Origin: Serinicoccus kebangsaanensis
GTDB taxonomy: Bacteria; Actinomycetota; Actinomycetes; Actinomycetales; Dermatophilaceae
Reading direction: 5' to 3'
Assembly: GCF_008919445.1 (NCBI RefSeq)
Contig: NZ_VSLG01000017.1
Span: 1 to 64,000 of the forward strand
Length of the DNA stretch: 64,000 nucleotides
Part shown: positions 39,031 to 63,665 of the stretch, one piece after another
How the letters are laid out: each line of letters begins with the position of its first letter
How positions within the stretch are numbered: position 1 is the first letter of the stretch
Notes under the pieces: generated by a model
What the model was told of the DNA's origin: nothing
What the model saw: the letters and a program-made list of their open reading frames with translations, nothing else
Databases searched by the model: none
Translations under genes and position numbers: made by a program

Positions 39031-39051
39031 GGCCGCTCGCGGTGGGCGCGG

Positions 39052-39993: not shown

Positions 39994-40051
39994 GGGCTCC
40001 AGAGTGGCTGCTCGGACCGACCGGGCGCCGAAGTCATCCACAGGCATACCG

Positions 40052-40202: not shown

Positions 40203-40249
40203 CCAGGGGTATGCCCGTGGCGGGGGAGCCCTGGGGGGAGCCCGGCAGG

Positions 40250-42045: not shown

Positions 42046-42738
42046 CTACACGACCTCGGTCGTGCCGATCAGTCGGTAGCCCTGGCCCCGGACGGACTCG
42101 ATGACACGCTTGGAGCCGGCGGCCTGGAACTTGAGGCGGAGCCTGCTGATGTGCGACTCCAGCGCGCGGTCGCTCAGCTGCGCCTTGCCGAGGGCGGTCG
42201 CCAGGTCGCGGCGGGACACGACCTGGCCGGACTGATCGGCCAGGAGGGACAGCAGGTCCAGCTCCGAGCGGGTGAGGGCCACCGGCACCCCCGACGCCAG
42301 GACGAAGCGTCCCTGCAGGTCCAGGTGCACGTCGGCGAGGGACTCCTCATGGAGCTCGTGCCGCGGACGGTCGGCGTAGTTGCGCACGAACACCTCGAGC
42401 CGACTCCGCAGCCGGGTCTCGGACACGGGCAGGCCGATGACGTCCTTGGCCCCACGCCCCAGGAGCAAGGCCTCGTGCTGCTCGGTCAGCTTCTCGGCCA
42501 GGATGAGCGTCGGCACCCGTCCCTGGTTCAGCCACCGCTGGGCCTCGACCATGGCGGTCGAGAAGCACCCACCATGGATCACCGCGGTGGTCGGCTGCTC
42601 CGCGGACATGCGCTCCTGCAGGCCCCCAGGCGCGACCGACACCACCGAGCAGCCGAGGGCACGGCTGATGGCGATGGTCGGCTCCTGCGGGGGGATCACC
42701 CCGTCCGTCGGGATGATCCACATCGTGTGCTCTGGCAT
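42046..42738 (-). CDS. OmpR/PhoB-type transcriptional regulator with degenerate receiver
   Basis: A 230-residue protein. The C-terminal winged helix (about 130-225) is a clear OmpR domain: ALTRSELDLLSLLADQSGQVV, LATALGKAQLSDRALESHISRLRLKF, RGQGYRLIG. The N-terminal part has the length and pattern of a receiver but lacks the DD pair and the phosphoacceptor Asp (TTAVIHGGCFSTAMVE where that Asp should be). Control by phosphorylation is therefore unlikely. ATG 42738 follows AGGAG. It is divergent from the large PKD protein, with 11-base direct repeats in between that suit OmpR-type binding. Confidence 0.8.
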   Translation of the reverse strand: MPEHTMWIIPTDGVIPPQEPTIAISRALGCSVVSVAPGGLQERMSAEQPTTAVIHGGCFSTAMVEAQRWLNQGRVPTLILAEKLTEQHEALLLGRGAKDVIGLPVSETRLRSRLEVFVRNYADRPRHELHEESLADVHLDLQGRFVLASGVPVALTRSELDLLSLLADQSGQVVSRRDLATALGKAQLSDRALESHISRLRLKFQAAGSKRVIESVRGQGYRLIGTTEVV

Positions 42739-42782
42739 CGGTCACTCCTGTGTTCGGGACCATCACACCAGATTCGCGAGGG

Positions 42783-42868
42783 TCTTGACACGATCTTGAC
42801 CATAGCCAGGCGCCTTCAGGCCTGTAGCCACGCGGGGAAAATCGAGATTGTCACGATCAGGTAACGAT
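42783..42868. promoter_or_regulatory. Two pairs of 11-bp-spaced direct repeats in the divergent promoter
   Basis: TCTTGAC at 42783-42789 and 42794-42800, and ACGAT at 42853-42857 and 42864-42868. Both pairs have an 11-base period, the arrangement bound by OmpR/PhoB-type dimers. They lie in the 234-base gap between the regulator gene and the PKD protein gene. Confidence 0.55.
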
Positions 42869-42972
42869 TCCTCGCATTCGCGCCAAACCAGCGTATCGTT
42901 CCCGTCTGTCAGGGATCGCAGGGGCTTGCCCGTAGGCGCCATGCCGCAACACCAGATCGAAGTGGAATCGCC

Positions 42973-45900
42973 ATGTACTCACTCGCACAACGTGCCACCG
43001 CGATGTTCGCGGCTCTCCTCGTCGGGCTCACGGTCGGGGGGACACAGGCCGCAGCAGCGGTCCCCCAGCCGGCGGCGACCGCGATCGCGATTCCCACGGT
43101 CGTCCCAGACGTCATACCGCACGACTCGATCGTGTCCGAGTCCTCGGTCAACTGGACCCCGCAGATCCGGGACGGCCGAGTCTTCGACATCGCGCAGTCC
43201 GGCCAGAGCGTGGTCGCCGGCGGCCGGTTCGCCGAGGTGGCCGGCAGCAACGGCTCGCCCGTGCTGAGCCGGAGCAGCATCGTCTCCTTCAACGCCACGA
43301 GCGGGGCCATCAACACGGGCTTCGACCCCAGCATCGTCGGTGACGTGCGGGCCATCGAGCCCGGACCGACACCGGGCACGGTCTACGTCGGGGGGACGTT
43401 CCAGGGCATCGACGGCGTCACGGGCAAGCTCTTCCTGCTCGACGCGCAGACCGGCGCGCGCGTGAGCTCCTTCACGCCGGTGCGCACCAACGGCGCCGTC
43501 CAGGACGTCGTGCTCCGCAACGGCCGGCTCTTCGTCGGTGGCTCCTTCACGATGGTGAACAACCAGCCTCGCGGCGGGCTGGTGACGATGAACCCGACCA
43601 CGGGAGCGGTCGACGGCTTCCTGACCTCCACCGTTGCTGGGAATCACAACTGGTTCGAGGGCTCCAACGGCGCGAAGGCGCCGGTCGGTCCCAAGGCGCT
43701 GACGATCGACCCGACCGGTCAGCACCTCGCGGTCATGGGCAACTTCAAGACCGTCGACGGGCTGACCCGCGACCAGCTCGCCCTCCTGGACATCTCCGGC
43801 GGCAGCGCCCAGCTGCGGACGGACTGGCGCACGACCGGCTACGAGGCCACCTGCGCATCGGGTGCCTTCGACTCCTACGTGCGTGACGTCCACTTCTCGC
43901 CCGACGGTGAGTACTTCTCCGTCGCCACGACCGGTGGCCCCTTCCCCGGCACCCTGTGCGACACGCTGACGCGCTTCGACCCGGAGGCCACGGGCCAGGA
44001 CGTCGACCCGCTGTGGACCGACGAGACCGGCGGCGACACGCTGCTGAGCGTGGCGTCGAGCGGGGCGACGGTGTATGCCGGTGGGCACCAGCGCTGGATG
44101 AACAACCTCAACGGTCGGGACCGGCCGAACCCCGGTGCGGTGCCGCGGCCCGGCATCGGCGCCGTCGACCCCAACAGCGGCATCCCCATCGAGTGGAACC
44201 CGGGCCGCAACCCTCGCGGGGCAGGCGCCGAGGCTCTCCTCGCCACCGACCAGGGACTGTGGGTCGGTCACGACACCAACTGGATCGGTGACCGCGACGA
44301 GTGGCGCCCGGGCATCGCCTTCTTCCCCCTCTCGGGCGGGTATGAGCTCGGTGCCGGTGAGAGCGGATCGCTGCCCTCCAACGTCTACCGGGCGGAGACC
44401 GGTGCCGGTGCCGGCGCGGACGCGCTGTTCCGCGTGAACGCGGGCGGTCCGGCCATCCCGGCCTTCGACGGTGGCCCGTCGTGGCGCGCCGACACCGACG
44501 CGGCGAGCGACGTGCGCAACAGCGGCAGCAACGCGGCGGGCTACGGGGCGGTCCCGACGGTCACGCCCAACGTCCCGGCGTCCGCGCCCAGGGCGCTCTA
44601 CGAGTCCGAGAGGTGGGACCCGAACGGTGACCCGGAGATGACCTGGGCCATCCCGATCCCGGCCGGCGAGGACATCAGCGTCCGCCTGTATCTGGCCAAC
44701 CGGTGCACCTGCACCAACGACCCCGGCGAGCGGCGCTTCGACGTCCAGCTGGAGGGCTCGACCGTGCTGAACGACTACGACATCAGCGCGGACGTGGGTC
44801 ACGACGTCGGCACGATGAAGTCGTTCGACATCACCTCGGACGGCACCGTCGACATCGTCTTCGGGCACGTCACGGAGAACCCGCTGATCAACGGGATCGA
44901 GATCGTGCGACGCACGGACGGCACCGAGCCTCCGGCGGAGGACACCGGGCTCAGCTACCTCTACTACGAGGGCGGCGCCTCGCCGTTCCCGGCCCAGCCG
45001 GCCCCGGCGGGCGACATCGACTGGCAGCAGGTCCGTGGGGCCACCATGATCGACGGCGAGCTCTTCTACGGGACGGCCAACGGCACGTTCGTGCGCCGGA
45101 CCTTCGACGGCACGGACTACGGCGACCCGGTCCTGATCGACCCCTACAACGACCCGGACTGGGTGAACGTCGACACCGGATCGGGCCAGACGTTCCGTGG
45201 GACCGTGCCGAACTTCTACGCACAGATCCCGAACCTGACCGGCATGGCCTACGACGACGGCCGGCTCTACTACACCCGCGCGGGCTCGAACCAGCTGTTC
45301 TACCGGACCTTCAGTCCCGACAGCGGCGTGATCTATCCGGCCGAGCGCACGGTCGCCGGCTTCTCCGCCCCCTCCCCGGCCGGCATCTTCGTCGACCAGG
45401 ACGGTGAGTCGCTCTACTTCGCGACCGCGACGACCGGCAACCTCTCCCGGATCGACCTGGACGGCACGTCAGTCTCGGGCACTTCCGAGGTGGTCAGCGG
45501 TCCCGACGTGGACGGGGTCAACTGGGCGTTCCGTGCGGTGTTCCCCGGTCCGGGCGACCCGCCACCGGTCCCCAACATCGACCCGGTCGCCGCGTTCGAG
45601 TCGACCTCGACCAGCCTGACCGCGTCCTTCGACGCCTCCGGCTCGAGCGACTCCGACGGCGAGATCGTCTCCTACGAGTGGGACTTCGGCGACGGTGGCA
45701 CGGCTGAGGGCATCGAGGCCGAGCACACCTACGACGAGGGCGGGACCTACCAGGTCACGCTGACCGTCACCGACGACGAGGGTGCGACCGACACCGCCAC
45801 CCAGGACGTCACGGTCGTCTTCGAGAACGAGAGCCCGGTGGCGGAGTTCACGGTCGAGTCGACGAGCCTGACGGCGAGCTTCGACGCGACCGGCTCCAGC

Positions 45901-48117
45901 GACCCGGACGGTGAGATCGTCTCCTACGACTGGGACTTCGGCGACGGCGAGTCCGGCACGGGTGCCACGGTGGACCACACGTATGCCGAGGCCGGCACCT
46001 ACACCGTGTCGCTCACGGTCACCGACGACAACGAGGCCACCAACCTCGTCGCGCAGGAGGTGACGGTCTCGCTGGCCAACGTGGAGCCCACGGCGGCCCT
46101 GACCGTCGAGGCGACCGATCTCATGATCGTCACCGACGGCTCGGGGTCCTCCGACTCCGACGGCGACATCGTGTCCTACGAGTGGGACTTCGGCGACGGT
46201 GGGTCGGCGACCGGTGTGACGGCTGAGCACACCTACGCCGAGGGCGGCACGTACACGGTGACGCTGACCGTCACCGATGACGACGGTGACACCGGCACCG
46301 CCACCGAGGAGGTGAGCGTCGAGGCGGCCAACGTCTCGCCGTCGGCCTCCTTCACCGCGAACTCCTCGGGGCTCGACCTCGGTGTGGATGCGTCGGGGTC
46401 GGCTGACCCGGACGGTGAGGTCGTGTCCTACGAGTGGGACTTCGGTGACGGTGGGTCGGCGACCGGGGTGACCGCGGAGCACACGTACGCGGAGTCCGGG
46501 ACGTACACGGTGACGTTGACGGTGACCGACGACGAGGGCGCGCAGGGTACGTCCTCGCAGGAGGTGACGGTCTCCGATGCTCCGGTGGGTGCGCCGGCGT
46601 TCGTGACCAGTGGTGCGGTGCAGACGCACGGGAACACCTCGTCGATGCGGGTGCCTGAAGGTGTGGAGGAGGGTGACCTGCTCCTGCTGCACGTGGTGAT
46701 GAGCAAGGATCGTGACCCTGCTCCGCCGACCGGTGTCGGTGAGTGGGAGGTCGTGACGCGGCTGGACAACGGTCCGCAGAACGTCGTGGTCTACTCCCGG
46801 GTGGCTTCGGGCGCGGAGAGCGACGAGATCATCACCCTGGACGTCACGGACTGGACCAAGACGGACATGACGATGTCGGTGTACCGCGGTGTCGCGGGTG
46901 ACCCGATCGAGGCGATGGCCGATGTGGCGCTGGTGAACCAGACCCAGCACCCGAGTGCGGAGGTCGCGGTGGCTGGTCCGGGTCGCACGGTGGTGACCTA
47001 CTGGTCGGACCGGTCGAGCTCGACCACGGCCTGGCAGGCCCCGTCGGGTGTGGAGGTCCGGTCGACGCAGGTCGGTGCCGGTGGTGGACGCGTGTCCTCG
47101 CTGCTGGTGGACGACACCTCTGGTCCGGGTACCTACCCGAGCCTGGTGGCGACGAGCACGCCCCAGTCGCCGCGGTCGATGGTCATCACCCTCGTCCTCG
47201 CACCCGGTGACAGCCCGCCCCCGGCGAACGTGGCACCCAGTGCCGCCTTCACGCTGCCGCCCTGCGACCAGCTGAGCTGCGCTGTGGATGCGTCGGGGTC
47301 GGCTGACCCGGACGGTGAGGTCGTGTCCTACGAGTGGGACTTCGGTGACGGTGGGTCGGCGACCGGGGTGACCGCGGAGCACACGTACGCGGAGTCCGGG
47401 ACGTACACGGTGACGTTGACGGTGACCGACGACGAGGGCGCGCAGGGTACGTCCTCGCAGGAGGTGACGGTCTCCGATGCTCCGGTGGGTGCGCCGGCGT
47501 TCGTGACCAGTGGTGCGGTGCAGACGCACGGGAACACCTCGTCGATGCGGGTGCCTGAAGGTGTGGAGGAGGGTGACCTGCTCCTGCTGCACGTGGTGAT
47601 GAGCAAGGATCGTGACCCTGCTCCGCCGACCGGTGTCGGTGAGTGGGAGGTCGTGACGCGGCTGGACAACGGTCCGCAGAACGTCGTGGTCTACTCCCGG
47701 GTGGCTTCGGGCGCGGAGAGCGACGAGATCATCACCCTGGACGTCACGGACTGGACCAAGACGGACATGACGATGTCGGTGTACCGCGGTGTCGCGGGTG
47801 ACCCGATCGAGGCGATGGCCGATGTGGCGCTGGTGAACCAGACCCAGCACCCGAGTGCGGAGGTCGCGGTGGCTGGTCCGGGTCGCACGGTGGTGACCTA
47901 CTGGTCGGACCGGTCGAGCTCGACCACGGCCTGGCAGGCCCCGTCGGGTGTGGAGGTCCGGTCGACGCAGGTCGGTGCCGGTGGTGGACGCGTGTCCTCG
48001 CTGCTGGTGGACGACACCTCTGGTCCGGGTACCTACCCGAGCCTGGTGGCGACGAGCACGCCCCAGTCGCCGCGGTCGATGGTCATCACCCTCGTCCTCG
48101 CACCTGACGAGGCATGA
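42973..48117 (+). CDS. Large secreted PKD-repeat/malectin-like protein
   Basis: A 1714-residue protein. Order: signal peptide (about 1-30), N-terminal beta-propeller-like repeats (SVVAGGRFAEVAG, FVGGSFTMVNNQPRGG), a malectin-like carbohydrate-binding domain (about 482-650, RVNAGGPAIPAFDGG), a second propeller-like region with YYEGGAS, four PKD domains (about 868-1203, each with SYEWDFGDG or SYDWDFGDG), a beta-sandwich module (about 1206-1412), a fifth PKD and a second copy of the module ending the protein. No LPXTG or C-terminal membrane anchor is seen. It is probably an extracellular polysaccharide-binding or matrix protein. The ATG is preceded by weak ribosome-binding sequence. The last 274 codons of each half are an exact duplicate. 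Confidence 0.85.
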   Translation: MYSLAQRATAMFAALLVGLTVGGTQAAAAVPQPAATAIAIPTVVPDVIPHDSIVSESSVNWTPQIRDGRVFDIAQSGQSVVAGGRFAEVAGSNGSPVLSRSSIVSFNATSGAINTGFDPSIVGDVRAIEPGPTPGTVYVGGTFQGIDGVTGKLFLLDAQTGARVSSFTPVRTNGAVQDVVLRNGRLFVGGSFTMVNNQPRGGLVTMNPTTGAVDGFLTSTVAGNHNWFEGSNGAKAPVGPKALTIDPTGQHLAVMGNFKTVDGLTRDQLALLDISGGSAQLRTDWRTTGYEATCASGAFDSYVRDVHFSPDGEYFSVATTGGPFPGTLCDTLTRFDPEATGQDVDPLWTDETGGDTLLSVASSGATVYAGGHQRWMNNLNGRDRPNPGAVPRPGIGAVDPNSGIPIEWNPGRNPRGAGAEALLATDQGLWVGHDTNWIGDRDEWRPGIAFFPLSGGYELGAGESGSLPSNVYRAETGAGAGADALFRVNAGGPAIPAFDGGPSWRADTDAASDVRNSGSNAAGYGAVPTVTPNVPASAPRALYESERWDPNGDPEMTWAIPIPAGEDISVRLYLANRCTCTNDPGERRFDVQLEGSTVLNDYDISADVGHDVGTMKSFDITSDGTVDIVFGHVTENPLINGIEIVRRTDGTEPPAEDTGLSYLYYEGGASPFPAQPAPAGDIDWQQVRGATMIDGELFYGTANGTFVRRTFDGTDYGDPVLIDPYNDPDWVNVDTGSGQTFRGTVPNFYAQIPNLTGMAYDDGRLYYTRAGSNQLFYRTFSPDSGVIYPAERTVAGFSAPSPAGIFVDQDGESLYFATATTGNLSRIDLDGTSVSGTSEVVSGPDVDGVNWAFRAVFPGPGDPPPVPNIDPVAAFESTSTSLTASFDASGSSDSDGEIVSYEWDFGDGGTAEGIEAEHTYDEGGTYQVTLTVTDDEGATDTATQDVTVVFENESPVAEFTVESTSLTASFDATGSSDPDGEIVSYDWDFGDGESGTGATVDHTYAEAGTYTVSLTVTDDNEATNLVAQEVTVSLANVEPTAALTVEATDLMIVTDGSGSSDSDGDIVSYEWDFGDGGSATGVTAEHTYAEGGTYTVTLTVTDDDGDTGTATEEVSVEAANVSPSASFTANSSGLDLGVDASGSADPDGEVVSYEWDFGDGGSATGVTAEHTYAESGTYTVTLTVTDDEGAQGTSSQEVTVSDAPVGAPAFVTSGAVQTHGNTSSMRVPEGVEEGDLLLLHVVMSKDRDPAPPTGVGEWEVVTRLDNGPQNVVVYSRVASGAESDEIITLDVTDWTKTDMTMSVYRGVAGDPIEAMADVALVNQTQHPSAEVAVAGPGRTVVTYWSDRSSSTTAWQAPSGVEVRSTQVGAGGGRVSSLLVDDTSGPGTYPSLVATSTPQSPRSMVITLVLAPGDSPPPANVAPSAAFTLPPCDQLSCAVDASGSADPDGEVVSYEWDFGDGGSATGVTAEHTYAESGTYTVTLTVTDDEGAQGTSSQEVTVSDAPVGAPAFVTSGAVQTHGNTSSMRVPEGVEEGDLLLLHVVMSKDRDPAPPTGVGEWEVVTRLDNGPQNVVVYSRVASGAESDEIITLDVTDWTKTDMTMSVYRGVAGDPIEAMADVALVNQTQHPSAEVAVAGPGRTVVTYWSDRSSSTTAWQAPSGVEVRSTQVGAGGGRVSSLLVDDTSGPGTYPSLVATSTPQSPRSMVITLVLAPDEA
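46383..47204 (+). repeat. 822-bp direct repeat, copy 1
   Basis: Identical to 47283-48104 over its whole length as far as I can check, at an exact 900-base offset. It encodes a PKD domain and the following module of the large surface protein. Identity at third codon positions too means recent duplication or ongoing gene conversion. Confidence 0.95.
47283..48104 (+). repeat. 822-bp direct repeat, copy 2
   Basis: Second copy of 46383-47204, ending 13 bases before the protein's stop codon region. The 78 bases between the copies encode a short non-repeated linker with an ..LPPCDQLSC.. segment. Confidence 0.95.
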
Positions 48118-48821
48118 CGGATAATCGGGTGATGAGCCCACCCACCTCGCGAGCGCGTCGCCCACGGCTCCTCACGGCCTGCCTGTTGGTCGGGTCGCTG
48201 CTGCTCACCGGCTGCAGCGGGTCCGACGACGGGGAGGACCAGGCGACGTCCAGCGCCTCTCCCACGACCGGCGAGGCGGCAGGAGAGCCGTCCGGATCCG
48301 AGGGGGCTGAGCCCACCGGCACCGACGACGCCGGCGCGAGCCCCACGTCCGGCACGGACGGCGGCGACAGCGCCGGCTCCGACGAGGGCGAGACGGACCC
48401 CGAGGCCTCGGTGAGCGTCACCACAGCGGCTGAACCCACGGCCGTCGGCGAGTTCGAGTACGAGGATGTGCCGGAACCCGCGCCGCAGGAGGTGGAGACG
48501 TTGTGCAACCTGACGCGGGACTACTTCGTGGGTCAGCGCGACGCCTCGCTGGTGGACGGCCGGGTCTCCGAGAGCATGCAGCTGACCGTCGTGGGTCTGA
48601 GCGATCAGGTCGGGATCTGGACGGGGCTGCAGGAGCAGTACCCCGACGCGGCCGAGGACATCCGTCGTGCGGGGGTGATCCTGCAGCACTGGGACAACGC
48701 CCTCGCCGCGTCGCAGCAAGGACTGACCGCAGAGGAAGCGGCCTACCTGAGCGAGGCGAACGAACTGATCGAGCAGCTCCCGTCGCAGGCCGCCGTCTCC
48801 GAGGTCGGGTGCGACCGGTGA
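48114..48821 (+). CDS. Lipoprotein with acidic Ser/Thr/Gly-rich linker
   Basis: A 235-residue protein. The signal peptide has a lipobox (LLVGSLLLTGC), followed by a low-complexity linker of about 80 residues rich in Gly, Ser, Asp and Glu, and a small helical C-terminal domain (ETLCNLTRDYFVGQR to VSEVGCDR) with two Cys that may pair. No family recognised. ATG 48114 overlaps the PKD-protein stop; ATG 48132 is possible. It is co-transcribed with the PKD protein and the following membrane protein, and so is probably part of the extracellular polymer machinery. Confidence 0.7.
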   Translation: MTDNRVMSPPTSRARRPRLLTACLLVGSLLLTGCSGSDDGEDQATSSASPTTGEAAGEPSGSEGAEPTGTDDAGASPTSGTDGGDSAGSDEGETDPEASVSVTTAAEPTAVGEFEYEDVPEPAPQEVETLCNLTRDYFVGQRDASLVDGRVSESMQLTVVGLSDQVGIWTGLQEQYPDAAEDIRRAGVILQHWDNALAASQQGLTAEEAAYLSEANELIEQLPSQAAVSEVGCDR

Positions 48822-49624
48822 GCGGCTCGCCCGTCTCGGTCGGCCCGGCACCGGTAGCCACCGAGAGCGGCCGGCGGCTGGCCTGGATCTTCTACGGTGG
48901 CCTCGGCCTGGCCATGCTGGTGATCATCCTCGGGCTGCACACACGGGTCCTGCCCGGGGCGGCGGCGAGCACGTTCGCCTACAACTCCGAGGGCTACTTC
49001 TTCGCCTTCTTCATGGCCGCCTGGATCCAGTTCGGCCTGCCGCGGCTGCCGTCGGGCTCCCGTGGCCTGTCGATAGCGGCCGGTGCCGGGGTGGCCTTCG
49101 CTGCACTCGGGCTGGCACTCCTGTCGATCGACGGGCTGCGCTCGTCCATCGCCACGCTGAACGAGCCGGCTCTGGCGCTGGCGGTGCTCGTGCCGTACGC
49201 CAGCCTGCCTCGACCGCTCCCGCGCTGGGCCCCGCTGGGACTGTCGCTGGTCGTGCTGATCATCGTTGCGATCGGCCTCTGGGCGGGAGATCCGCAGCCC
49301 GGTGTGCAGCTGGGATCGGTCAACTGGGTCATCGCGACGGCCGAGATGATGGCCCTCATCTTCCTGGCGCCGATCGTGCTCGACCTGACCTGCCCCTGGA
49401 TCCTGGACCGGTCCCGGCGGGGTCGTGCCCTGCTGGTGCCCACCCTGGTCGGCCTCCTGCTCGTCCCGGTGGTGGTCTCCGGGCTCGGTCGGGCGGCGCG
49501 GGCGGGGGACACCTGGCTCCCGCTCATGCTGAACTACCTGGGCAGGTCGCACGAGGCCTTCGTCGGCTTCCTGCTGCTCGTCGCGTATTTTTGGCTGCGC
49601 GGAAGAACACGACGTGTCGGCTGA
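48818..49624 (+). CDS. Polytopic membrane protein of unknown function
   Basis: A 268-residue protein with seven or so hydrophobic segments (LAWIFYGGLGLAMLVIILGL, GLSIAAGAGVAFAALGLALL, LGLSLVVLIIVAIGLW, ALLVPTLVGLLLVPVVVSGL and others). No known domain is recognised. GTG 48818 overlaps the lipoprotein stop (GTGA). Position between a lipoprotein and sulfotransferases suggests a role in polymer sulfation, export or anchoring, but this is inference only. Confidence 0.65.
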   Translation: MSGSPVSVGPAPVATESGRRLAWIFYGGLGLAMLVIILGLHTRVLPGAAASTFAYNSEGYFFAFFMAAWIQFGLPRLPSGSRGLSIAAGAGVAFAALGLALLSIDGLRSSIATLNEPALALAVLVPYASLPRPLPRWAPLGLSLVVLIIVAIGLWAGDPQPGVQLGSVNWVIATAEMMALIFLAPIVLDLTCPWILDRSRRGRALLVPTLVGLLLVPVVVSGLGRAARAGDTWLPLMLNYLGRSHEAFVGFLLLVAYFWLRGRTRRVG

Positions 49625-49658
49625 CGTGGGGCGGTCGACGGAAGAGGGACAGACACGG

Positions 49659-52369: not shown

Positions 52370-52384
52370 CGGACCCCCGTCGGC

Positions 52385-55842: not shown

Positions 55843-56657
55843 GGTGCCGGCAGGCTCCAGTCGTGGCGTGCGTCGACATCCTCGATGTCGTAGCCGTAGC
55901 GGCGGGCGGCGTCGTCGAACCGGCTCACGATCCGGCGACGCTCGCGCCCCGAGAGGGGACCGGACATCGCGGACCACGCGCTGCGGTACCGGTCGGAGTA
56001 GGTCGACCTGACCTGACCGCTGTTGACCAGCGGGAAGCTCAGGCCGAGGAAGCTCGTGAGAGGGGCCAGGGCGGCGTCCGTGTCGGCGACGAGGTCCTCG
56101 TACCGCAGGACGTGCACCCGCTCCAGGTCGGCCACATCACGCAGCAGGGCGTCGTGCGCGACGAACCAGTGCTCCACCAGGGAGCTCAGGCTGGTCCCTC
56201 GTTGCCACTTCTTGCTCGACAGCGCGACGACGACCGGGTGCCGGAAGATGACCACGAGCGCGCTGCCGGGGAACACCGACTGCAGAAAGCGACCCATGAC
56301 GAGGTTGGGTGGTGACTTCTCGAGCAGCAGCGGTGACTCGAGGTCCCAGTACGGCATCCAGGACCGGATCAACCCCTCACCGATCCGGGCCTGCTCGCCG
56401 GCATCGGTGACCGGGCCGAGCTGTGCGGCAGGGTCGTGGGCGAAGCGCCCGGGGCCGCCGTAGGCGACGGCGGGCTGGTACATGGTCTGCAGGTGCTGAC
56501 CCTCGTCCTCGCGCACACCCGTCCCCTGCAGCCCGGAGATCTCGGGGTGATCGCCGAGGAGCCGCCCCAGGGCTGTGGTCCCGCTCCGGTGCAGGCCGCC
56601 GACGAAGACCAGCCGGTCGGGGGCCACGAGCGGACTCACGGGTTGCGACAGCGTCAT
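55839..56657 (-). CDS. Sulfotransferase
   Basis: A 272-residue PAPS sulfotransferase. LVFVGGLHRSGTTALGRLLG holds the phosphosulfate loop and ALVVIFRHPVVVALSSKKW the 3'-phosphate site. HVLRYEDLVAD lies near the end of the core. ATG 56657, with ATGA overlaps to both neighbours (flippase before, polymerase fusion after). It is located inside the assembly operon, so it probably sulfates the lipid-linked unit before flipping, or the polymer. Confidence 0.85.
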   Translation of the reverse strand: MTLSQPVSPLVAPDRLVFVGGLHRSGTTALGRLLGDHPEISGLQGTGVREDEGQHLQTMYQPAVAYGGPGRFAHDPAAQLGPVTDAGEQARIGEGLIRSWMPYWDLESPLLLEKSPPNLVMGRFLQSVFPGSALVVIFRHPVVVALSSKKWQRGTSLSSLVEHWFVAHDALLRDVADLERVHVLRYEDLVADTDAALAPLTSFLGLSFPLVNSGQVRSTYSDRYRSAWSAMSGPLSGRERRRIVSRFDDAARRYGYDIEDVDARHDWSLPAP

Positions 56658-58243
56658 GACGGCTCCTGTCCTTGCGCGCTGGCGGCAGCCTGACCTCGTC
56701 CACCTCGACGACGCCGCAGCGAGGTCACGAGGTAGCCGAGCTGCAGTCGACGGCGGAGTAACCACAGACCCAGCAGATAGGTCGGCGAGCAGACCGCCAG
56801 GGAGATCAGCAGAGCATAGCCCTGGTCGTCGACGAGCGCGGCCAGACCTGCCGGGAGGCCGCCGAAGACCACTGCGGGCAAGGCCATCGCGAGGAGCGAC
56901 TCCCGGCCGAAGGGGTGCAGGTTGCGCCAGATGAGCAGCTGCATCAGGGGCACCAGGTTGGCCACGAGGATGGCGACGGCCCAGCCGATCGCCGCCCCGA
57001 TGATGCCCAGGCGCGGGATGAGCAGCAGATCGATGACGACGTTGGTGGTGAGCGCGAGGATCACGTTGCCGAGGTTCCACAGCGACTTGCCGGCCATGAG
57101 CAGGACCATGTCCACCATGCCGCACGCCGTGGCCACGAGCATCGCCGCGCACAGCACCTGCAGGACCCGCTGTCCCTCGGTGTAGTCGCCGCCGAAGATG
57201 CGCAGCACCGTGCCCGAGAAGGTCATGAGCATGAGGTAGAGGGGCCAGGTGATGACGATGAGCCAACCCGTGGCGGTGCGGTACAGGGACGACGTCCCGC
57301 TCCAGTCGCTCCGCGCCACGGCTTCGCCGATGTGCGGCTGGACGCTCAGGCCCACGGCCCGGGCGGCTGCCTGGCCCAGGGTGATGAAGCGGGTCGCCGC
57401 GGTGTAGATGGCTGCGGCCGGGAGGCCGGCCAGCGCGCCCACGAGGACGATGTCGAAGCGCTGCATCGCGACCTGGGCCAGGCCGGCCGCCGCCCGCGGT
57501 GAGCTGAACCGCCAGAACGCCCCCCAGGGGGCGAATCCCGCACTGCGGTCCTGCGTGGCGGCGCGGTCGCGCAGTCGGCGCCACCACCACCAGCCCAGCA
57601 CGGCCAGCGGGACGTAGGAGGCCGACCAGGCCCACGGTGCCGCGTCGACGCCCAGGACAGCGAAGGCCAGGGCGACGAGCGCGAGCTGGAGCAGGGGACG
57701 TGCCAGCTGGTCGAGGGTGGCGTTGACGGCCATGGTCCCCAGGCCTCGCGAGGCGGAGACCGTCAGGTTCGTGATGCCTGCGGCCGGCAGGAACAGCGCC
57801 ATGGCCACGACGAAGGTCGCGAAGCGTTCCGGCTGGTCCGGGCTGAGCAGCCTGCCGATCTCGCCGGACCAGATGATGAGGACGGCCGCGCACACGACCG
57901 AGGTGATGAGCACCGGCACCGCGGCGATCCGCATGTAGACGTGCGCTCGCGAGAGCTCCCCACGCGCCCGCGACCCCGAGAGAAAGTACACCAGGCCCGC
58001 GTTCGTGCCGAGCTGCGCGAGCCCGGCCGCCAGGAGGAACACCGAGGTCGCCGTGAAGAAGGCTCCCGCCTCCGTGGTCGACGACAGCCGGGTGATGAGC
58101 ACGGTCAGCACGAACGTGCTCACGGCGGAGACGGCCGACCCGGCGAAGTTGAGCATGCTGCCCCGACCGGCGCGGCGCAGCGAGGATCCTCCGGCGCCGC
58201 TGGTGCCCGGCTTCGTCACGTGCGGGCTATCGACCCCGGTCAC
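56654..58243 (-). CDS. Wzx-type polysaccharide flippase (MATE/MVF-like)
   Basis: A 529-residue protein with 12-14 membrane helices and the flippase pattern (MLNFAGSAVSAVSTFVLTVLITRLSS; FDIVLVGALAGLPAAAIYTAATRF). It moves lipid-linked repeat units to the outer face. Start GTG 58243 overlaps the kinase-like gene's end by 17 bases. Part of the minus-strand assembly operon. Confidence 0.87.
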   Translation of the reverse strand: MTGVDSPHVTKPGTSGAGGSSLRRAGRGSMLNFAGSAVSAVSTFVLTVLITRLSSTTEAGAFFTATSVFLLAAGLAQLGTNAGLVYFLSGSRARGELSRAHVYMRIAAVPVLITSVVCAAVLIIWSGEIGRLLSPDQPERFATFVVAMALFLPAAGITNLTVSASRGLGTMAVNATLDQLARPLLQLALVALAFAVLGVDAAPWAWSASYVPLAVLGWWWWRRLRDRAATQDRSAGFAPWGAFWRFSSPRAAAGLAQVAMQRFDIVLVGALAGLPAAAIYTAATRFITLGQAAARAVGLSVQPHIGEAVARSDWSGTSSLYRTATGWLIVITWPLYLMLMTFSGTVLRIFGGDYTEGQRVLQVLCAAMLVATACGMVDMVLLMAGKSLWNLGNVILALTTNVVIDLLLIPRLGIIGAAIGWAVAILVANLVPLMQLLIWRNLHPFGRESLLAMALPAVVFGGLPAGLAALVDDQGYALLISLAVCSPTYLLGLWLLRRRLQLGYLVTSLRRRRGGRGQAAASAQGQEPS

Positions 58244-59396
58244 CCTGCACCACCTGTTCGAGCGCGGGCAGCAACCAGTCCTCGATCGGACCCTTCTTGG
58301 CGCCGGCCTTCTCCTGCTGGTGCCGGACGAACCGCTCGGCGAGGTCGATCGCGTAGAGCGCGACCAGCATCCTGCCGGAGGTGGGGTGAGCGCCGTTGGC
58401 CTCCCCCAGGTCCGCCGCCAGGTGCTGGAGACGGGTCATCGACCCCTGGGGCGTCAGGCCGTCGAGCCGCACGCCGGACTGGAAGGAGTAGTGCAGGGCG
58501 TCCAGCCCGACCGGCACACCGGTGCTGAAGCGCTCCCAGTCCCAGGCATACGTCGTGTCACCGCGCGTCGCGAGGTTCCACGGGGTCCAGTCGCCGTGCG
58601 CGGCCCCGAGTCGCAGGCTGGAGGAGCCCCAGATGTCCTCGGCGGCCTCGGACAGTGCGGCGAGGCGGTCCGACAGCGGTGTCGGTCCGAGCTCCCCGAG
58701 CCGGGCGCGCAGCGCCCGCCACCACGGCACCGAGGCGAGCACGTCCTCGCTCTGCTCGAAGCCACCGACGAGACGTCGCAGCGCGGCATCCCGCACGCCA
58801 GGATCGACGCCGCGCGGCGACCAGGTGGGCACCGGTTCGATCAGGAGGTAGCGGTGCTCGTGCCAGTCGCCCGCCTGGATGACGTTCGGGTGGCGCAGGC
58901 TGCCGAGGTCTCGACCCTCCAACGAGCGCAGCGCCTCCTCCTCGCGGACCAGACGTCGGCTGGTGAGGTCGTTGACCGCGACCTTGGCGTAGCCCTGGGT
59001 GACCCCGCGCCCGTCGAGGAGGTGCAGGACGGGTTTGCGGTTGGCCCGGGGAGGTCCGAGGGTCAGCCCCACGTGGAGTGGCCGACCCGCTGCCGCGGAG
59101 AGCCGGGCGGGCAGTCCGTGCTCCGGCCTCCGGACGTGGAGCCTGGTCGGCACCAGCCCCCCGGCACCGAGCCAGCCGGCCACGCCCAGGCCGACAGCGG
59201 TGAGCTGCGCGCGCCGGGTGCTGGGTGACTTGTAGTGGCGCAGCGCGGCGGCGGTCACCCTGCGCGGACCCCGCGGGACGAACACGGTCGGCGCCGATCC
59301 TCCGGGGAGGCAGAGGTAGGTCTCGGAACCCCTGGACTGACGTCCGCGGCCACCGAGGGAGAGGTCGCAGGCGGCCGGCCACACCGCCTCGAGCAT
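58227..59396 (-). CDS. Aminoglycoside-phosphotransferase-fold protein in the polysaccharide operon
   Basis: A 389-residue protein. The C-terminal two-thirds have an APH-type kinase fold: LGAAHGDWTPWNLATRGD is the catalytic loop (HGDWTPWN) and YAWDWERFSTGVP follows as the metal site. The N-terminal 130 residues are less clear (LPGGSAPTVFVPRGP). It may phosphorylate a sugar or a lipid carrier, or act as a pseudo-kinase. ATG 59396 is preferred; ATG 59432 overlaps the preceding gene. Co-transcribed with the flippase and the chain-length gene. Confidence 0.72.
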   Translation of the reverse strand: MLEAVWPAACDLSLGGRGRQSRGSETYLCLPGGSAPTVFVPRGPRRVTAAALRHYKSPSTRRAQLTAVGLGVAGWLGAGGLVPTRLHVRRPEHGLPARLSAAAGRPLHVGLTLGPPRANRKPVLHLLDGRGVTQGYAKVAVNDLTSRRLVREEEALRSLEGRDLGSLRHPNVIQAGDWHEHRYLLIEPVPTWSPRGVDPGVRDAALRRLVGGFEQSEDVLASVPWWRALRARLGELGPTPLSDRLAALSEAAEDIWGSSSLRLGAAHGDWTPWNLATRGDTTYAWDWERFSTGVPVGLDALHYSFQSGVRLDGLTPQGSMTRLQHLAADLGEANGAHPTSGRMLVALYAIDLAERFVRHQQEKAGAKKGPIEDWLLPALEQVVQGDRGR

Positions 59397-59418
59397 GCTC
59401 AAGGCAGACAGATGCCCA

Positions 59419-60933
59419 TCAGGCGTTGGCATGCGTGGCTGGGGTGGGTTCGTCCACGGGAGCTTCCGTCGGAGGCAGGGCGAGTGCCATCCCCGCGTCG
59501 CGACGGACGTTGACCAGGCCGGCGGCGACGATGCCGAGGTGCCGCTGGCGGTCCAGGGCCGCCTCGATCTGGGCACGGGTCGTCTGACCGTCCACGACGA
59601 CCAGCAGCACGGACTCGGCGGCGCTCATCGCGGCGTCGCTGTCCGCGGTGCCCGAGGGCGCGGCGTTGAAGATGACGTAGTCGTAGTCCGAGCGCACACG
59701 GTCCACGAGCTCCCGCAGGGCGGGGCCGCCCTGGAGGTCGCGGATGCCGGCGGGGTCGTGGCCGATCGGCAGGACGTCGATGCCGTGGACCGAACGGACA
59801 GCGTCGTGGAAGAGCTCGTTGCGGCCGAGGATGTCGGACAGGCCGGGGCGACCCTCGACCCCCAGAGCGGTGTGCAGGCCCTCGGCGTAGGCGTCGGCGT
59901 CGACGACCAGGACGGAGTACCCGGCATCGGCCAGGCTGATGCCGAGGTTGGGCACCACCAGCGACTGCGGGTTCTTGCCGACACCGGAGACGACGAGCAC
60001 GTGCGGTCGGGCGCAGTTCGCGACGACACCGGCACGGAGCTGCCGGAAGGCCTCCCGGACGTGCGCGAGACCCTCCTCGTCGTGCTTGTGCCTGACGCGC
60101 GGGATCGAGGCGAAGACCGGCAGGCCGCTGACGGAGAAGTCCTCCTCCGAGCGGACCACGTCCTGGCGCCACTCGCGGAGGAGTGCCGCCAGCACGGCGA
60201 GAACGGCCCCGACCACAGCGGCCAGCGCCAGCAGCAGCCAGGACGGGACGCCGTCCGGCGCGGTGGGCTCCTCGGCCGGGTTCAGGACGGTGCCGGGGTC
60301 GGTGCTCACCACCTGCTCGGCGCTGAGGTTGGCGTTGAGCTGGGCCAGCCGGTCGGTGAACAGCTGGACCTGCTGCTGGGCGAACCCGCCCACCCCGTCC
60401 GCGGCGTCGCGCAGGCTCTGCTGGGCCGACTCCGCCTGAGACTCCAGACCCTCGATGCGGCTCTCCTGCAGCTCCGTGGCGGCGGTGCCGCGATATGCCA
60501 GGAACGAGTCGGCGAAGGCCTGGGCACCCGAACGGGCGTTCTCGGGGGTGTCGCTGGTGTAGGCGATCTCGAGGGTCTGCGTCGCATCCAGGACGCGCAC
60601 GGCCAGCTCGCCGTCCTCGTCACGGAGCAGGCGCCCGGCATCCTCGGAGGCCAGCGCGGCCACGGCGGGGGTGGTCACGGTGCGCGCCTCGGTCTGCATG
60701 GCGATGGTGTTCTGCGTCCCGCTCGTGGTGGCCACCTCGGGGGAGAGCGGACTGCCCGGCACCGGCTTCAGCAGGACGACCGAACGTGCGGTGTAGCTGG
60801 ACTCCTGGGTGGCGGCATACGCGGCCGCCAACCCGACGACGAGGGCGAGGGTGAGCAGCATCACCCACGGATGGTGCCGTGCTGCCGTCAGCACGGATGG
60901 GAGACCGCGGGGTCCGCCCTGCCTGTCGTTCAC
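59419..60933 (-). CDS. Wzz/CapB-like chain-length regulator with degenerate tyrosine-kinase domain
   Basis: A 504-residue protein. The N-terminal membrane segment (PWVMLLTLALVVGLAAAYAA), a periplasmic coiled region and a second helix (SWLLLALAAVVGAVLAVLAAL) form the Wzz part. The C-terminal domain (about 270-490) resembles CpsD/BY-kinases, with SVLVVDADAYAEGLHTALGV (Walker A'-like). The Walker A position reads SGVGKNPQSLV instead of GEGKST, and there is no C-terminal tyrosine cluster, so kinase activity is doubtful. GTG 60933 follows an AGGGGG site. Likely a scaffold for polymerisation length. Confidence 0.82.
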   Translation of the reverse strand: MNDRQGGPRGLPSVLTAARHHPWVMLLTLALVVGLAAAYAATQESSYTARSVVLLKPVPGSPLSPEVATTSGTQNTIAMQTEARTVTTPAVAALASEDAGRLLRDEDGELAVRVLDATQTLEIAYTSDTPENARSGAQAFADSFLAYRGTAATELQESRIEGLESQAESAQQSLRDAADGVGGFAQQQVQLFTDRLAQLNANLSAEQVVSTDPGTVLNPAEEPTAPDGVPSWLLLALAAVVGAVLAVLAALLREWRQDVVRSEEDFSVSGLPVFASIPRVRHKHDEEGLAHVREAFRQLRAGVVANCARPHVLVVSGVGKNPQSLVVPNLGISLADAGYSVLVVDADAYAEGLHTALGVEGRPGLSDILGRNELFHDAVRSVHGIDVLPIGHDPAGIRDLQGGPALRELVDRVRSDYDYVIFNAAPSGTADSDAAMSAAESVLLVVVDGQTTRAQIEAALDRQRHLGIVAAGLVNVRRDAGMALALPPTEAPVDEPTPATHANA

Positions 60934-61017
60934 AACAATCCCCCTATGGACGTCTACATGAACGAGCCCATGATACGCGCCTGACCAGTGGATCCACGCA
61001 TCGCCGGGGGTCGAGGG

Positions 61018-62370
61018 TCAGGCCGCGCCGCCCGTGGCGTCACCTCGTCGGACCGCGGCACGCAGGTCGGCCTCATTGGTGAGCGCGGTCTCGTCGTCGG
61101 TGGGAACCCCCAGCTCGTTCTCGAGCGCGTCCGCTGCGGTCTGGCCGGACTCGATCTTTCCTCGACCCAGGACCGAGCCGATGGCGCGGAGGTATGCCTT
61201 GCGCTGCGGCCTCCAGTCGAGCACCGAGACGGCGCGGCGCCGACCGCGGACGGCCATCTCCGCGCGCAGGTCGTCGTCGTCGAGCAGCTGTTCCACGGCA
61301 TCCGCGAAGGCACCGATGTCGCCTGGAGGGACGTAGAGGACCGAGTCGGCCCCGGAGATGCGCGTCTCCTTCAGGTCGAAGGCGACCGACGGCAGCCCGA
61401 AGGCCATGTACTCCATGGTCTTGTTCATCGTCGACAGGTCGTTCATCGGCGTCCGCGGGTCCGGGCCGAGACCCACGTCGGCGGCGTTGAGGTACCGCGC
61501 GATCTCGGCCGGTCCGACCCGGCCGGTGAACTCGACGTGGTCGTCGAGGTCGAGTCGGGTGCACTCCTGACGCAGCGACTCCAGGCTGTCGCCGAAGCCG
61601 AGGAGGACGGCACGCACCGAGGTGCGCCCGCGCCGGTGGACGAGCTCGTCCATGAGATGCAGGACGCTCTCCACCCCGTCCTGCGGCCCCATGATGCCGA
61701 GGTAGGCGAGCAGGTGGCTGGCACCCCCGCGCACGTCCGGGTCGGGGTGGCGGGGATACATGCTCCGGGTGTCCGGGCCGCTGCGCACCACGGTCACGTC
61801 CTGCTCGGCCAGCCCACCACGCTCCTGGGCGATCGCCTTGAACGACTCGTTGGTCGAGATCACGTGGTCGGCGGTGCGGAACGTGCACCGCTCCAGCCAG
61901 CGGAGCACCGCCAGCTCGGCGTGCTCCACAGGAGTGGTCGGCGCCCCGAACCGGGACAGGAAGAGCTCCGGGTTGAGGTCGTGGTGGTCGAAGACGAAGC
62001 GCACGCCGCGTGTCTTCCACAGCAGCGCGAGCAACCAGAAGGTGTCAGGGGGGTTGCAGGCCTGGATGACGTCGAACCCGCGTTCGCGACGCACGGTCAG
62101 GCTCAGCAACGCCGTGCGGATCCACGAGTAGGCGAACTCGTAGGCGAAGCCCGCCAGCCCCTCGGCCTCGGGTGCCGGCGGGTACTTGTACAGCGCCACT
62201 CCGTCGACCACGTGGTAGGTGGGGTCGCCAGGCCCCTGCGGGCAGATCACCGACACCTCGTAGCCGCTGTCCCGCAGCGCCTGGCACTCGAGCCAGACCC
62301 GGCGGTCCAACGGCACGGGGAGATTCTGCACGATGATCAGAATCCTGGGGGCCTGTCCGGCGCTTCTCAT
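61018..62370 (-). CDS. Family 4 glycosyltransferase
   Basis: A 450-residue GT-B enzyme. ILIIVQNLPVPLDRRVW at the N-terminus, a central HHDLNPELFLSRF, and the C-terminal nucleotide-sugar site MNKTMEYMAFGLPSVAFDL with the upstream acidic residue. It transfers a sugar (often GlcNAc/Fuc-type or mannose) in the repeat-unit pathway. ATG 62370 is the start of the minus-strand operon, divergent from the GH26-like gene. The region 60934-61017 between it and the chain-length gene holds no further gene. Confidence 0.88.
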   Translation of the reverse strand: MRSAGQAPRILIIVQNLPVPLDRRVWLECQALRDSGYEVSVICPQGPGDPTYHVVDGVALYKYPPAPEAEGLAGFAYEFAYSWIRTALLSLTVRRERGFDVIQACNPPDTFWLLALLWKTRGVRFVFDHHDLNPELFLSRFGAPTTPVEHAELAVLRWLERCTFRTADHVISTNESFKAIAQERGGLAEQDVTVVRSGPDTRSMYPRHPDPDVRGGASHLLAYLGIMGPQDGVESVLHLMDELVHRRGRTSVRAVLLGFGDSLESLRQECTRLDLDDHVEFTGRVGPAEIARYLNAADVGLGPDPRTPMNDLSTMNKTMEYMAFGLPSVAFDLKETRISGADSVLYVPPGDIGAFADAVEQLLDDDDLRAEMAVRGRRRAVSVLDWRPQRKAYLRAIGSVLGRGKIESGQTAADALENELGVPTDDETALTNEADLRAAVRRGDATGGAA

Positions 62371-62575
62371 GCGAATATTCGTTCACGACTTGGTGTCCGA
62401 GTCAACTAGGCACGCGTGCAGGGTGAACGCGACCAGCGAGGTTGGGCCGTCGCTGCGAGGGCGGCTCATATCAGGGGCCACCAGCGGTGTCGTCACGGGG
62501 GTGCCGGGGTCGTCGGAGGCGCGATCTGTAGCCCGCCTGGGAACGTTTGCGAGATTACTTTGAGAACTCACGAGT

Positions 62576-62607
62576 AACCCCCGATTTCTCGCGTGTTCTC
62601 GGGGGTT
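62576..62607. terminator. Hairpin in the divergent GT4/GH26 promoter region
   Basis: 9-bp stem AACCCCCGA / TCGGGGGTT with a 14-base loop, followed by TTTC on the plus strand. It is located in a comparatively AT-rich gap (62371-62651). It could be an attenuator or an isolated terminator. Confidence 0.45.
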
Positions 62608-62614
62608 TCAGCAA

Positions 62615-62643
62615 TTGACAGTCCTGCGAGGGCGAACTAGTTT
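62615..62643 (+). promoter_or_regulatory. Promoter of the GH26-like gene
   Basis: A consensus -35 TTGACA (62615-62620), 17-base spacer and -10 TAGTTT (62638-62643). The expected transcription start is at or a base or two before ATG 62652, so the message would be leaderless. Confidence 0.65.
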
Positions 62644-62651
62644 GCCGCTGC

Positions 62652-63665
62652 ATGTCCCGAATTTCACGAAGGTCTCTGATCAAGAACGGCGGCGCCCTGT
62701 CCCTGGGTGGTGCCGTCGCCCCTGCCCTCCTCAGCCAGGTCGAGGACCCGTCAACCCTGTTCCCCCGGGAGCCCCGCAACATCCTCCCCGCCCCTGCGGC
62801 GGGCGCCCGTTGGACCGGGCATCAGCCCGGCAAGATCTATCTCGGCATGTCGACGAACGGCGACATCACCCGCGAGGTCCGCAAGACCGGCGCCATCGGT
62901 GTCCACCGGCACTACTACCAGTGGTCCTTCGGCCGGGGCGAGCGCTCCACCATCGCCAACGACCACGCGAACCGGCGTATCCCCTGGGTCAGCTTCAAGC
63001 CCCCGGGTGGCGGCACCAACGGCTGGAAGCAGATCGCGAACGGCCAGCACGACTCGGCGATCCGTGCGCGTGCCCGCGGCTACGCCTCGTTCTCCAAGCC
63101 GATCATCGTGACCTTCCACCACGAGCCTGCCGAGGAGGCTCGCTCCAGCCGCGACCTCCCCCGTCAGTGGCAGCGGGCCTTCTGCCGCATCCACGACCTG
63201 ATGCAGGACGAGACGAACCTGCGCAACGTGGTCTTTGTGCCGATCATCGGCGACTACACCTTCAACCCGTGGAACAAGCGGGACAGGCCGGAGGACTGGG
63301 CGACGCCGGACGTGGTGCGTCGCTCTGGCTTCTTCGGGCTGGACCTCTACCAGAACCAGTCCGGTGACGGGCTCGACGAGCGCATCGGTCGCGTCCGGGA
63401 GCACCTCGCCGACGCCGGCTACCCGAACAAGATGGTCGGCATCGGTGAGACCGGCGTGGCCCTGAAGTTCCGCAACCCCAACGCGGTGACCTGGTGGCAG
63501 CAGCAGTGGCAGTGGGCCTCGCGCAACACCGACAAGATCGGCGTGATCTCCTACTTCAACAGCAACAACAACCCGTCCCGACCGGACTGGCGGCTGTCGG
63601 AGAGCCCGGCCAAGCTCACGGCCTTCCGCGCCTCGCTGTCCAGCTCGAGGTCGTGCCGCCTCTGA
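62652..63665 (+). CDS. Tat-exported GH26-like glycoside hydrolase
   Basis: A 337-residue protein with a twin-arginine signal (SRRSLIKNGGALSLGGAVAP). The TIM-barrel region has the acid/base Glu in IVTFHHEPAEEA and the nucleophile Glu in MVGIGETGVALKF, as in GH26-type retaining enzymes. It would cut or trim beta-mannan/glucan-like chains outside the cell. Its place at the end of the polysaccharide locus suggests it processes the exopolysaccharide made next door. The promoter upstream is strong and leaderless. Confidence 0.8.
   Translation: MSRISRRSLIKNGGALSLGGAVAPALLSQVEDPSTLFPREPRNILPAPAAGARWTGHQPGKIYLGMSTNGDITREVRKTGAIGVHRHYYQWSFGRGERSTIANDHANRRIPWVSFKPPGGGTNGWKQIANGQHDSAIRARARGYASFSKPIIVTFHHEPAEEARSSRDLPRQWQRAFCRIHDLMQDETNLRNVVFVPIIGDYTFNPWNKRDRPEDWATPDVVRRSGFFGLDLYQNQSGDGLDERIGRVREHLADAGYPNKMVGIGETGVALKFRNPNAVTWWQQQWQWASRNTDKIGVISYFNSNNNPSRPDWRLSESPAKLTAFRASLSSSRSCRL

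Follow-up and report, generated by a model that had tools for sequence, protein, structure and literature searches.

A wps-1-type gene cluster predicted to make a sulfated polysaccharide in Serinicoccus kebangsaanensis

The stretch of DNA studied here (the window) comprises positions 1 to 64,000 of contig NZ_VSLG01000017.1 (contig C8, which ends at 75788) in the 3.5 Mb genome of the actinobacterium Serinicoccus kebangsaanensis (assembly GCF_008919445.1), and it carries two converging operons of sulfotransferase and polysaccharide assembly genes. We propose, with a probability of about 0.8, that they form a wps-1-type cluster making a sulfated polysaccharide by the Wzx/Wzy route, the type being named after a cluster of Actinoplanes missouriensis reported in June 2026 (Tezuka and Ohnishi, 2026; PMC13390465). 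Judged by its genes, the cluster is an enlarged variant of this recently described kind. The proposal is based on sequence, namely gene content, motifs of the loop that binds 3′-phosphoadenosine 5′-phosphosulfate (PAPS), gene adjacency and co-occurrence across genomes, and it is strengthened because genes for making PAPS sit just beyond the window. A first-pass annotation of the window had postulated a sulfated Wzx/Wzy exopolysaccharide system not described for this lineage; the function it assigned is supported by the adjoining PAPS genes, by co-occurrence within the genus and by the conservation of the cluster, whereas the novelty was not borne out.

Genes of the cluster and of sulfate activation

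The cluster consists of the following genes (ORF, open reading frame).

42973..48117, plus strand: large secreted protein with malectin and several PKD domains (Pfam PKD_4, Malectin)
48114..48821, plus strand: small lipoprotein (lipobox LLTGC, read by eye)
48818..49624, plus strand: polytopic membrane protein (by eye), with homologues in several family loci
49659..51497, plus strand: fused double sulfotransferase ST1-ST2 (Sulfotransfer_3 in two stretches, Sulfotransfer_1)
51494..52369, plus strand: sulfotransferase ST3 (Pfam), WpsH-like by position in related loci
52385..53296, minus strand: GT2 glycosyltransferase, WpsA-like (Glycos_transf_2, E 2.4e-20 for the longer ORF, above the Pfam cut-off)
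53293..55842, minus strand: Wzy-like polymerase fused to a Wzz-type domain (Wzy_C, below cut-off)
55839..56657, minus strand: sulfotransferase ST4 (Sulfotransfer_3, E 9.4e-22 for the longer ORF)
56654..58243, minus strand: Wzx flippase (Polysacc_synt, E 3.7e-10, 40.1 bits against a cut-off of 28.2; MatE)
58227..59396, minus strand: protein like aminoglycoside phosphotransferases (APH), WpsI-like, our survey marker (conserved residues; weak APH match)
59419..60933, minus strand: Wzz-type protein with a BY-kinase-like domain without Walker A (AAA_31, E 4e-9)
61018..62370, minus strand: GT4 glycosyltransferase (Glyco_trans_1_4, E 2.8e-20, above the Pfam cut-off)
62652..63665, plus strand: GH26-family protein with a twin-arginine signal read by eye (family profile; E158 and E266 conserved)

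The plus operon runs from the PKD/malectin protein through the lipoprotein and the membrane protein to ST1-ST2 and ST3, and the minus operon converges on it in the order GT4, Wzz-type protein, APH-like protein, Wzx, ST4, Wzy-Wzz fusion and GT2. Reading frames are open throughout the named genes, six of the ten within-operon junctions are 4-base overlaps (among them ST1-ST2 with ST3, and ST4 with each of its neighbours, Wzx and Wzy), and the two stops, at 52369 and 52385, leave the 15-base gap between converging operons that the first-pass annotation had described. Its gene calls hold, as do its four sulfotransferase domains in three genes, its GT2, GT4 and Wzx assignments (all above Pfam cut-offs) and its PKD/malectin protein; the lipoprotein and the Tat-exported hydrolase are found where it placed them, their lipobox and Tat signal resting on reading by eye. 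Our Pfam scans of the window covered the genes from 40578 onward and four more upstream genes; the lipoprotein, the membrane protein (scanned as a longer ORF) and the APH-like protein gave no match in them.

All three sulfotransferase proteins score above the Pfam thresholds of Sulfotransfer_3 and Sulfotransfer_1. A PAPS-loop-like motif is present in every one of the four domains: GSGRSGST in ST1, GPDKAGST with RDPSERAFS in ST2, GGQRCGTT with RDPVERAYS in ST3, and GGLHRSGTT with RHPVVVALS in ST4, which may be set beside what we take to be the PAPS-binding signatures, a 5′ loop such as GxxRxGTT and RDPxxRAxS. The loop residues are kept across the ST3 family alignment. Among solved structures the unnamed sulfotransferase 3rnl is nearest to both ST3 and ST2; next come heparan sulfate NDST and 3-OST for ST3, and heparan sulfate sulfotransferases including 3-O-sulfotransferases for ST2. 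No export signal was seen on the sulfotransferases by eye, no predictor having been run.

The polymerase/chain-length fusion of the first-pass annotation stands in its C-terminal half, which is Wzz-like, whereas the Wzy_C match of the protein falls below the cut-off (E 2.5e-6, 27.8 bits against 31.7). This half aligns with Wzz/BY-kinase families at hhalign probabilities of 100 and 99.9. The BYK1 match is in part circular, because the Wzz profile used took in stand-alone Wzz relatives, and the BYK2 match less so. Similarly, the protein called Wzz/BY-kinase-like (59419..60933) is of the Wzz type and has the BY-kinase-like domain but not the Walker A motif: the pattern G....GK[ST] occurs in none of its 73 homologues, the window protein reading GVGKNP, so that this partner is probably structural. 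The Wzz-type assignment of both proteins is by homology, a homologue in an Actinoplanes locus (L116, below) passing Pfam Wzz. As an observation apart, these sequences may represent a conserved pseudokinase family of Wzz-type proteins, BY-kinase-like but devoid of Walker A.

The marker protein resembles an aminoglycoside phosphotransferase weakly (E 0.008), and in its family K138, E152, HGD at 267-269, N274 and D286 are invariant in 36 sequences, presumably the pattern of an active kinase fold; we would guess that its substrate is a sugar or a lipid-linked molecule. For the GH26-like hydrolase, family membership follows from the relatives, since 25 of 33 aligned family members match PF02156 and the family profile matches solved GH26 enzymes (E 5e-38), whereas the window protein itself does not reach Pfam GH26. 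E158 is invariant and E266 nearly so, and we take these two to be the catalytic glutamates of GH26.

For the initiating transferase, noted as missing from the window and suggested to be sought in the flanking genome, candidates lie elsewhere: there are two PF02397 matches genome-wide, on contigs C4 and C26, neither of them on C8. The C26 candidate is a WbaP-type protein of 541 residues. In eight genomes of the family, WbaP-type proteins are encoded some 20 kb or less from the marker, and the C26 protein is 44-50% identical to these. All 12 genus genomes examined have a WbaP-type protein, its frame measuring 533-554 residues. Around the C26 gene, no polysaccharide gene was recognised by eye among the printed N-terminal stretches over 20 kb. 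The C4 protein as sole candidate was rejected, five of the 12 genomes (G132, G108, G120, G109, G133) holding the longer type only.

The first-pass annotation had found no PAPS genes in the window, and had proposed a search for cysDNC in the flanking genome. CysD, CysN and the adenosine 5′-phosphosulfate (APS) kinase do lie on the same contig beyond it, and the SLC13 permease whose start it had seen runs on to contig position 65558.

63792..65558, plus strand (63792..64000 within the window): SLC13/CitMHS permease (CitMHS, E 5.6e-71; Na_sulph_symp, E 2.2e-11)
contig 65562-66335: CysQ-like protein of the inositol-phosphatase family
contig 66332-67429: APS kinase, 2.3 kb past the window end
contig 71455-72366: CysD
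contig 72366-73628: CysN

The only APS-kinase match of the whole genome is at contig 66431-66892, in agreement with its absence from the window, and with this gene 2.3 kb beyond the end the idea that PAPS genes are absent was rejected. The enzyme is 63% identical over 172 residues to the APS kinase of an Actinoplanes locus, and the permease, by its families, possibly takes up sulfate. The APS kinase also carries about 178 extra N-terminal residues without a Pfam match; that they are the remnant of an ATP-sulfurylase was considered and is unsupported (E 0.31).

Distribution of the cluster and comparison with wps-1

The APH-like marker occurs in 25 of 186 genomes of the family (7 of 53 genera), and a sample of 396 genomes from the phylum yielded 18 with it. 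Both counts include the own genome, and the idea of a cluster peculiar to this genome is thereby rejected. The neighbourhoods were surveyed up to 10 kb around the marker in the best 80 of 543 marker relatives, a non-random sample, and their genes carry the label of the best profile from small alignments made in this analysis. Wzx and a sulfotransferase are each present in 79 loci, a Wzy-labelled ORF in 77, a Wzz-like gene in 75, GH26 in 74, GT2 in 65 and APS kinase in 50. ST3 has a full-length homologue in 79 of the 80 and is the same-strand neighbour of the APH gene in 70. Among the 65 loci with at least 21 kb of sequence, all have a sulfotransferase, 62 have two or more, 47 have an APS kinase, and 59 hold the whole core of Wzx, Wzy, Wzz-like protein, GT2 and sulfotransferase. 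The number of sulfotransferase ORFs per locus is none in one, one in 8, two in 63, three in 7 and four in one, where several loci with none or one are shortened by contig ends; the window, with three ORFs and four domains, is thus above the usual though not unique (three ORFs are likewise present in its relatives L078, L079, L080 and L147). Many of the 80 loci come from Actinoplanes and kin, Catellatospora and Glycomyces, and others, uncounted, from Modestobacter, Blastococcus and further genera. Homologues of the PKD/malectin protein lie close to the marker in many of the mapped family loci, and it is possibly a polymer-binding surface protein. Many of the 80 loci also contain a GH26-type gene next to the APS kinase and a second, different one within the cluster; GH26-type matches number 111 in 72 loci, for example L116:3405-4904 and L116:13612-15633.

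The closest published system is wps-1 of A. missouriensis (AMIS_7280-7380), which has been studied by gene disruption. In the available parts of the paper, its content is given as GT2, two sulfotransferases, GT26, DUF4262, GH26, a methyltransferase, Wzx, the protein-kinase-like WpsI, Wzy and Wzz, and its product is predicted to be a sulfated polysaccharide, for which the authors await verification (PMC13390465). Deletion of wpsH led to squashed sporangia, and deletion of AMIS_7390, a gene for ATP-sulfurylase and APS kinase adjoining wps-1, spoils the sporangia (PMC13390465, available parts). Our comparison was made by gene kinds and with sequences of Actinoplanes relatives in place of the AMIS proteins themselves. 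A locus of Actinoplanes sp. TFC3 (L116) holds ATP-sulfurylase with APS kinase, Wzz, Wzy_C (below cut-off at 28.3 bits, like the window protein), sulfotransferase, MatE, methyltransferase, GH26 (below cut-off), WecG, a second sulfotransferase and GT2, with an APH-like gene in between; as far as the available text goes this corresponds to the published wps-1 content, and its genes are homologous to those of the window.

On the same partial view of wps-1, GT2, two sulfotransferase kinds, GH26, Wzx, an APH/WpsI-like protein, Wzy (by homology only) and Wzz are common to both, the window holding eight of the 11 wps-1 gene kinds, and both have an adjacent APS-kinase gene. Pfam scanning of the cluster genes in the window found none of the WecG-type GT26, methyltransferase and DUF4262 genes of wps-1. 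The window's own features are four sulfotransferase domains, GT4, the Wzy-Wzz fusion, the PKD/malectin protein, the Wzz partner without Walker A, and separate genes for permease, CysQ, CysC, CysD and CysN; a second sulfotransferase cluster probably adjoins it in this genome (below). Since wps-1 shares most gene kinds and is predicted to make a sulfated polysaccharide, the earlier claim of no precedent in this lineage is out of date (PMC13390465, available parts). Among the matches listed in our search for genes of sulfated polysaccharides in actinobacteria, this paper alone was directly relevant, and in the part available it calls sulfated polysaccharides uncommon in bacteria other than cyanobacteria (PMC13390465).

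More distant parallels are found in other phyla, again as far as the accessible parts of the reports tell. The xss cluster for synechan in Synechocystis PCC 6803 resembles the window in having Wzx, Wzy, a co-polymerase, glycosyltransferases and two sulfotransferases, but differs by eight glycosyltransferases, cyanobacterial regulators and its phylum, and the description names no APH-like or GH26 gene; sulfate in synechan was measured (PMC8205485). The capsules of the Gammaproteobacteria Vibrio sp. KMM 8419 and Cobetia marina KMM 1449 are sulfated as well, with a gene cluster reported (PMC11641403, PMC11766843).

Proposed pathway and alternative explanations

In the route that we propose, sulfate would enter via the SLC13 permease, CysDN and the APS kinase encoded nearby would produce PAPS, and the CysQ-like protein would remove the by-product PAP. 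Loading a sugar on undecaprenyl phosphate would fall to a WbaP-type enzyme from outside the cluster, the C26 protein being the likeliest candidate, and GT4 and GT2 would lengthen the lipid-linked sugar. The four sulfotransferase domains would sulfate the repeat unit prior to export, while it is still lipid-linked and faces the cytoplasm, since this is where PAPS arises and no export signal was seen on these enzymes by eye. Wzx would flip the repeat unit, the Wzy half would polymerise it, and the two Wzz-type domains would set the chain length; the secreted GH26 protein would trim or release the polymer, and the PKD/malectin protein and the lipoprotein may keep it at the surface. Which ion the permease carries, which molecule accepts the sulfate, in what order the steps run and how each accessory protein contributes are what we infer here.

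PAPS supply was followed across the 186 family genomes and the 31 genomes of the genus (the Ornithinimicrobium group), counting as strong an APS kinase of E 2.1e-23 or better and sulfotransferases at E 0.001 (56 genomes, 53 of them above the Pfam cut-off). In the family, 50 genomes have a sulfotransferase and a strong APS kinase, 6 a sulfotransferase only, 33 an APS kinase only and 97 neither; of the 25 marker-positive genomes, 24 have a sulfotransferase and 23 an APS kinase. In the genus, 13 genomes have a strong APS kinase and 16 a sulfotransferase, and none has the kinase without a sulfotransferase; sulfotransferases only are found in G115, G121 (75% complete) and G129 (74% complete, E 4e-4). 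The cluster-type CysD (at least 82% identity) occurs in exactly the same 13 genomes.

Some points weigh against our proposal. The counts were taken regardless of kinship, and the weaker APS-kinase matches were dropped before counting (116 family genomes match at E 0.001, of which 83 were counted and 33 left out, with G123, G126 and G131 left out in the genus). Of the 50 family genomes having both a sulfotransferase and an APS kinase, only 29 have the two no more than 30 kb apart on the same contig, a lower bound as the sulfotransferase list behind it ended at E 2.1e-7, and 30 of the 80 loci have no APS kinase within 10 kb. The cluster itself is without an initiator gene. In A. missouriensis, sporangia looked normal under the microscope after deletion of wpsB, one of the two sulfotransferase genes, and spore release fell about tenfold, according to the available text (PMC13390465).

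That the cys genes serve ordinary sulfate assimilation, and stand beside an exopolysaccharide cluster by chance, is an unlikely explanation that nevertheless draws on further contrary facts: no CysD besides that of the cluster was found in this genome, which has no PF01747 (ATP-sulfurylase) match but two CysH-like genes, one beside an apparent sulfite reductase (by eye), so that the cluster genes may also feed cysteine synthesis, and eight relatives with the cluster-type CysD carry the same kind of CysH-like gene. Altogether, the C11-type CysH-like gene is found in nine of the 13 genomes (the own genome included), G114 has another type and G122 a separate divergent CysH-CysD pair. However, the 15 genus genomes without a sulfotransferase have neither a strong APS kinase nor the cluster-type CysD. 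Two relatives (G107, G112) retain APS kinase and CysD with no further PF01507 (CysH-type) match, so that PAPS there is not for reduction by a CysH-type route, and divergent CysH-CysD pairs come without a strong APS kinase (G118, G135) unless a sulfotransferase is present (G122). The pattern agrees with PAPS made for sulfation, because the APS kinase tracks sulfotransferases and not CysH. As a side observation, a CysD match is absent from 16 of the 31 genus genomes, some of them incomplete, and PF01747 from all 31, and many members may therefore be unable to activate sulfate by these enzymes.

Sulfotransferase folds serve many acceptors, and a polymer might be made here while the targets of the sulfotransferases are small molecules, lipids or proteins and these enzymes lie within the operons incidentally. 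The nearest solved matches of ST4, weak as they are (E 3e-5), are protein-tyrosine sulfotransferases, which speaks against our proposal, and ST1 has weak matches only, to polyketide-synthase sulfotransferases. We hold this to be quite improbable in view of the near-constant company of sulfotransferase and Wzx in the 80 loci, the place of ST3 beside the APH gene, the 4-base overlaps that tie ST3 to ST1-ST2 and ST4 to Wzx and Wzy, and the likeness of ST2 and ST3, among named solved enzymes, to polysaccharide sulfotransferases. A real if minor possibility is that the product is attached to the wall, as a glycopolymer or capsule carrying sulfate, and is not a free exopolysaccharide; the lipoprotein and the PKD/malectin protein would suggest retention at the surface, and the Gram-positive-type wall of actinobacteria can anchor such polymers.

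Flanking genes, a probable second cluster and implications

Upstream of the cluster lies one flanking gene, and further genes follow the APS kinase or CysN beyond the window.

42046..42738, minus strand: regulator with an OmpR-type C-terminal DNA-binding domain (Trans_reg_C, E 1.6e-17)
contig 67507-69006: amino-acid permease
contig 68993-69862: protein without a Pfam match
contig 69866-71284: Wzz protein with an AAA_31 domain
contig 73628-74848: membrane protein labelled second flippase Wzx2 by eye, without a Pfam match

The regulator has an identical placement in G132, the closest relative in the genome set, and possibly regulates the cluster. The second Wzz-BY-kinase, outside the window, reads intact, with PGEGKST and a tyrosine-rich tail. 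Within the PKD/malectin gene there are two exact 822-bp copies (46383-47204 and 47283-48104, 900 bp apart), suggesting recent duplication or gene conversion. Shuffling predicts 0.3 occurrences of ACCGCGGTGGC in the window, where it is present 7 times, six copies lying at 38850-40203 and four of these at 40052-40203 in an irregular direct repeat. An Rfam scan gave no match at gathering thresholds.

A second sulfotransferase cluster probably adjoins the first across a junction of C8 with C4 that we deduced from other genomes. The end of contig C4 (95651) holds PF13469 matches at 89670-90356 and 93433-94017, a PF02397 match at 90514-91044, and proteins labelled by eye, with no family search, as PglF-like, aminotransferase and GNAT-like. 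The complete genome G117 has on one contig SLC13, CysQ, CysC, CysD, CysN, permease, SGNH-like protein and Wzz-BY-kinase, followed by CysD (in pieces), CysN, Wzx2, two sulfotransferases, GNAT-like protein, WbaP, ST5, aminotransferase and PglF-like protein. The end of C8 and the reversed end of C4 resemble two parts of this order, C8 being without the first CysD-CysN pair, and the C4 WbaP is 98.6% identical to that of G117, in which the APH marker was not found. In G124 both cluster kinds lie within about 40 kb of one contig; in G132 the 9 kb beyond CysN gave no match to the C4 genes. Two curiosities of these genomes are the two cysD-cysN pairs at G117:C1:2644914-2654450, with one gene of each in several ORF pieces, and a second short cysD match with an internal stop, beside the Wzz-BY-kinase gene, at G124:C1:2991176-2991493.

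As a tentative extension, which we hold to be possible rather than probable, the genus may keep sulfate activation mainly for polysaccharide decoration over cysteine, with two neighbouring sulfated-polymer lines sharing one PAPS module and a densely sulfated, glycosaminoglycan-like polymer being made by relatives of heparan sulfate N- and O-sulfotransferases. If the product of AMIS_7390 likewise feeds PAPS to the sulfotransferases, its deletion phenotype, as given in the available text, would be explained (PMC13390465). More broadly, our survey suggests that a single conserved type of cluster, in many cases accompanied by a PAPS supply to match, occurs across several families of Actinomycetota including named culturable species.

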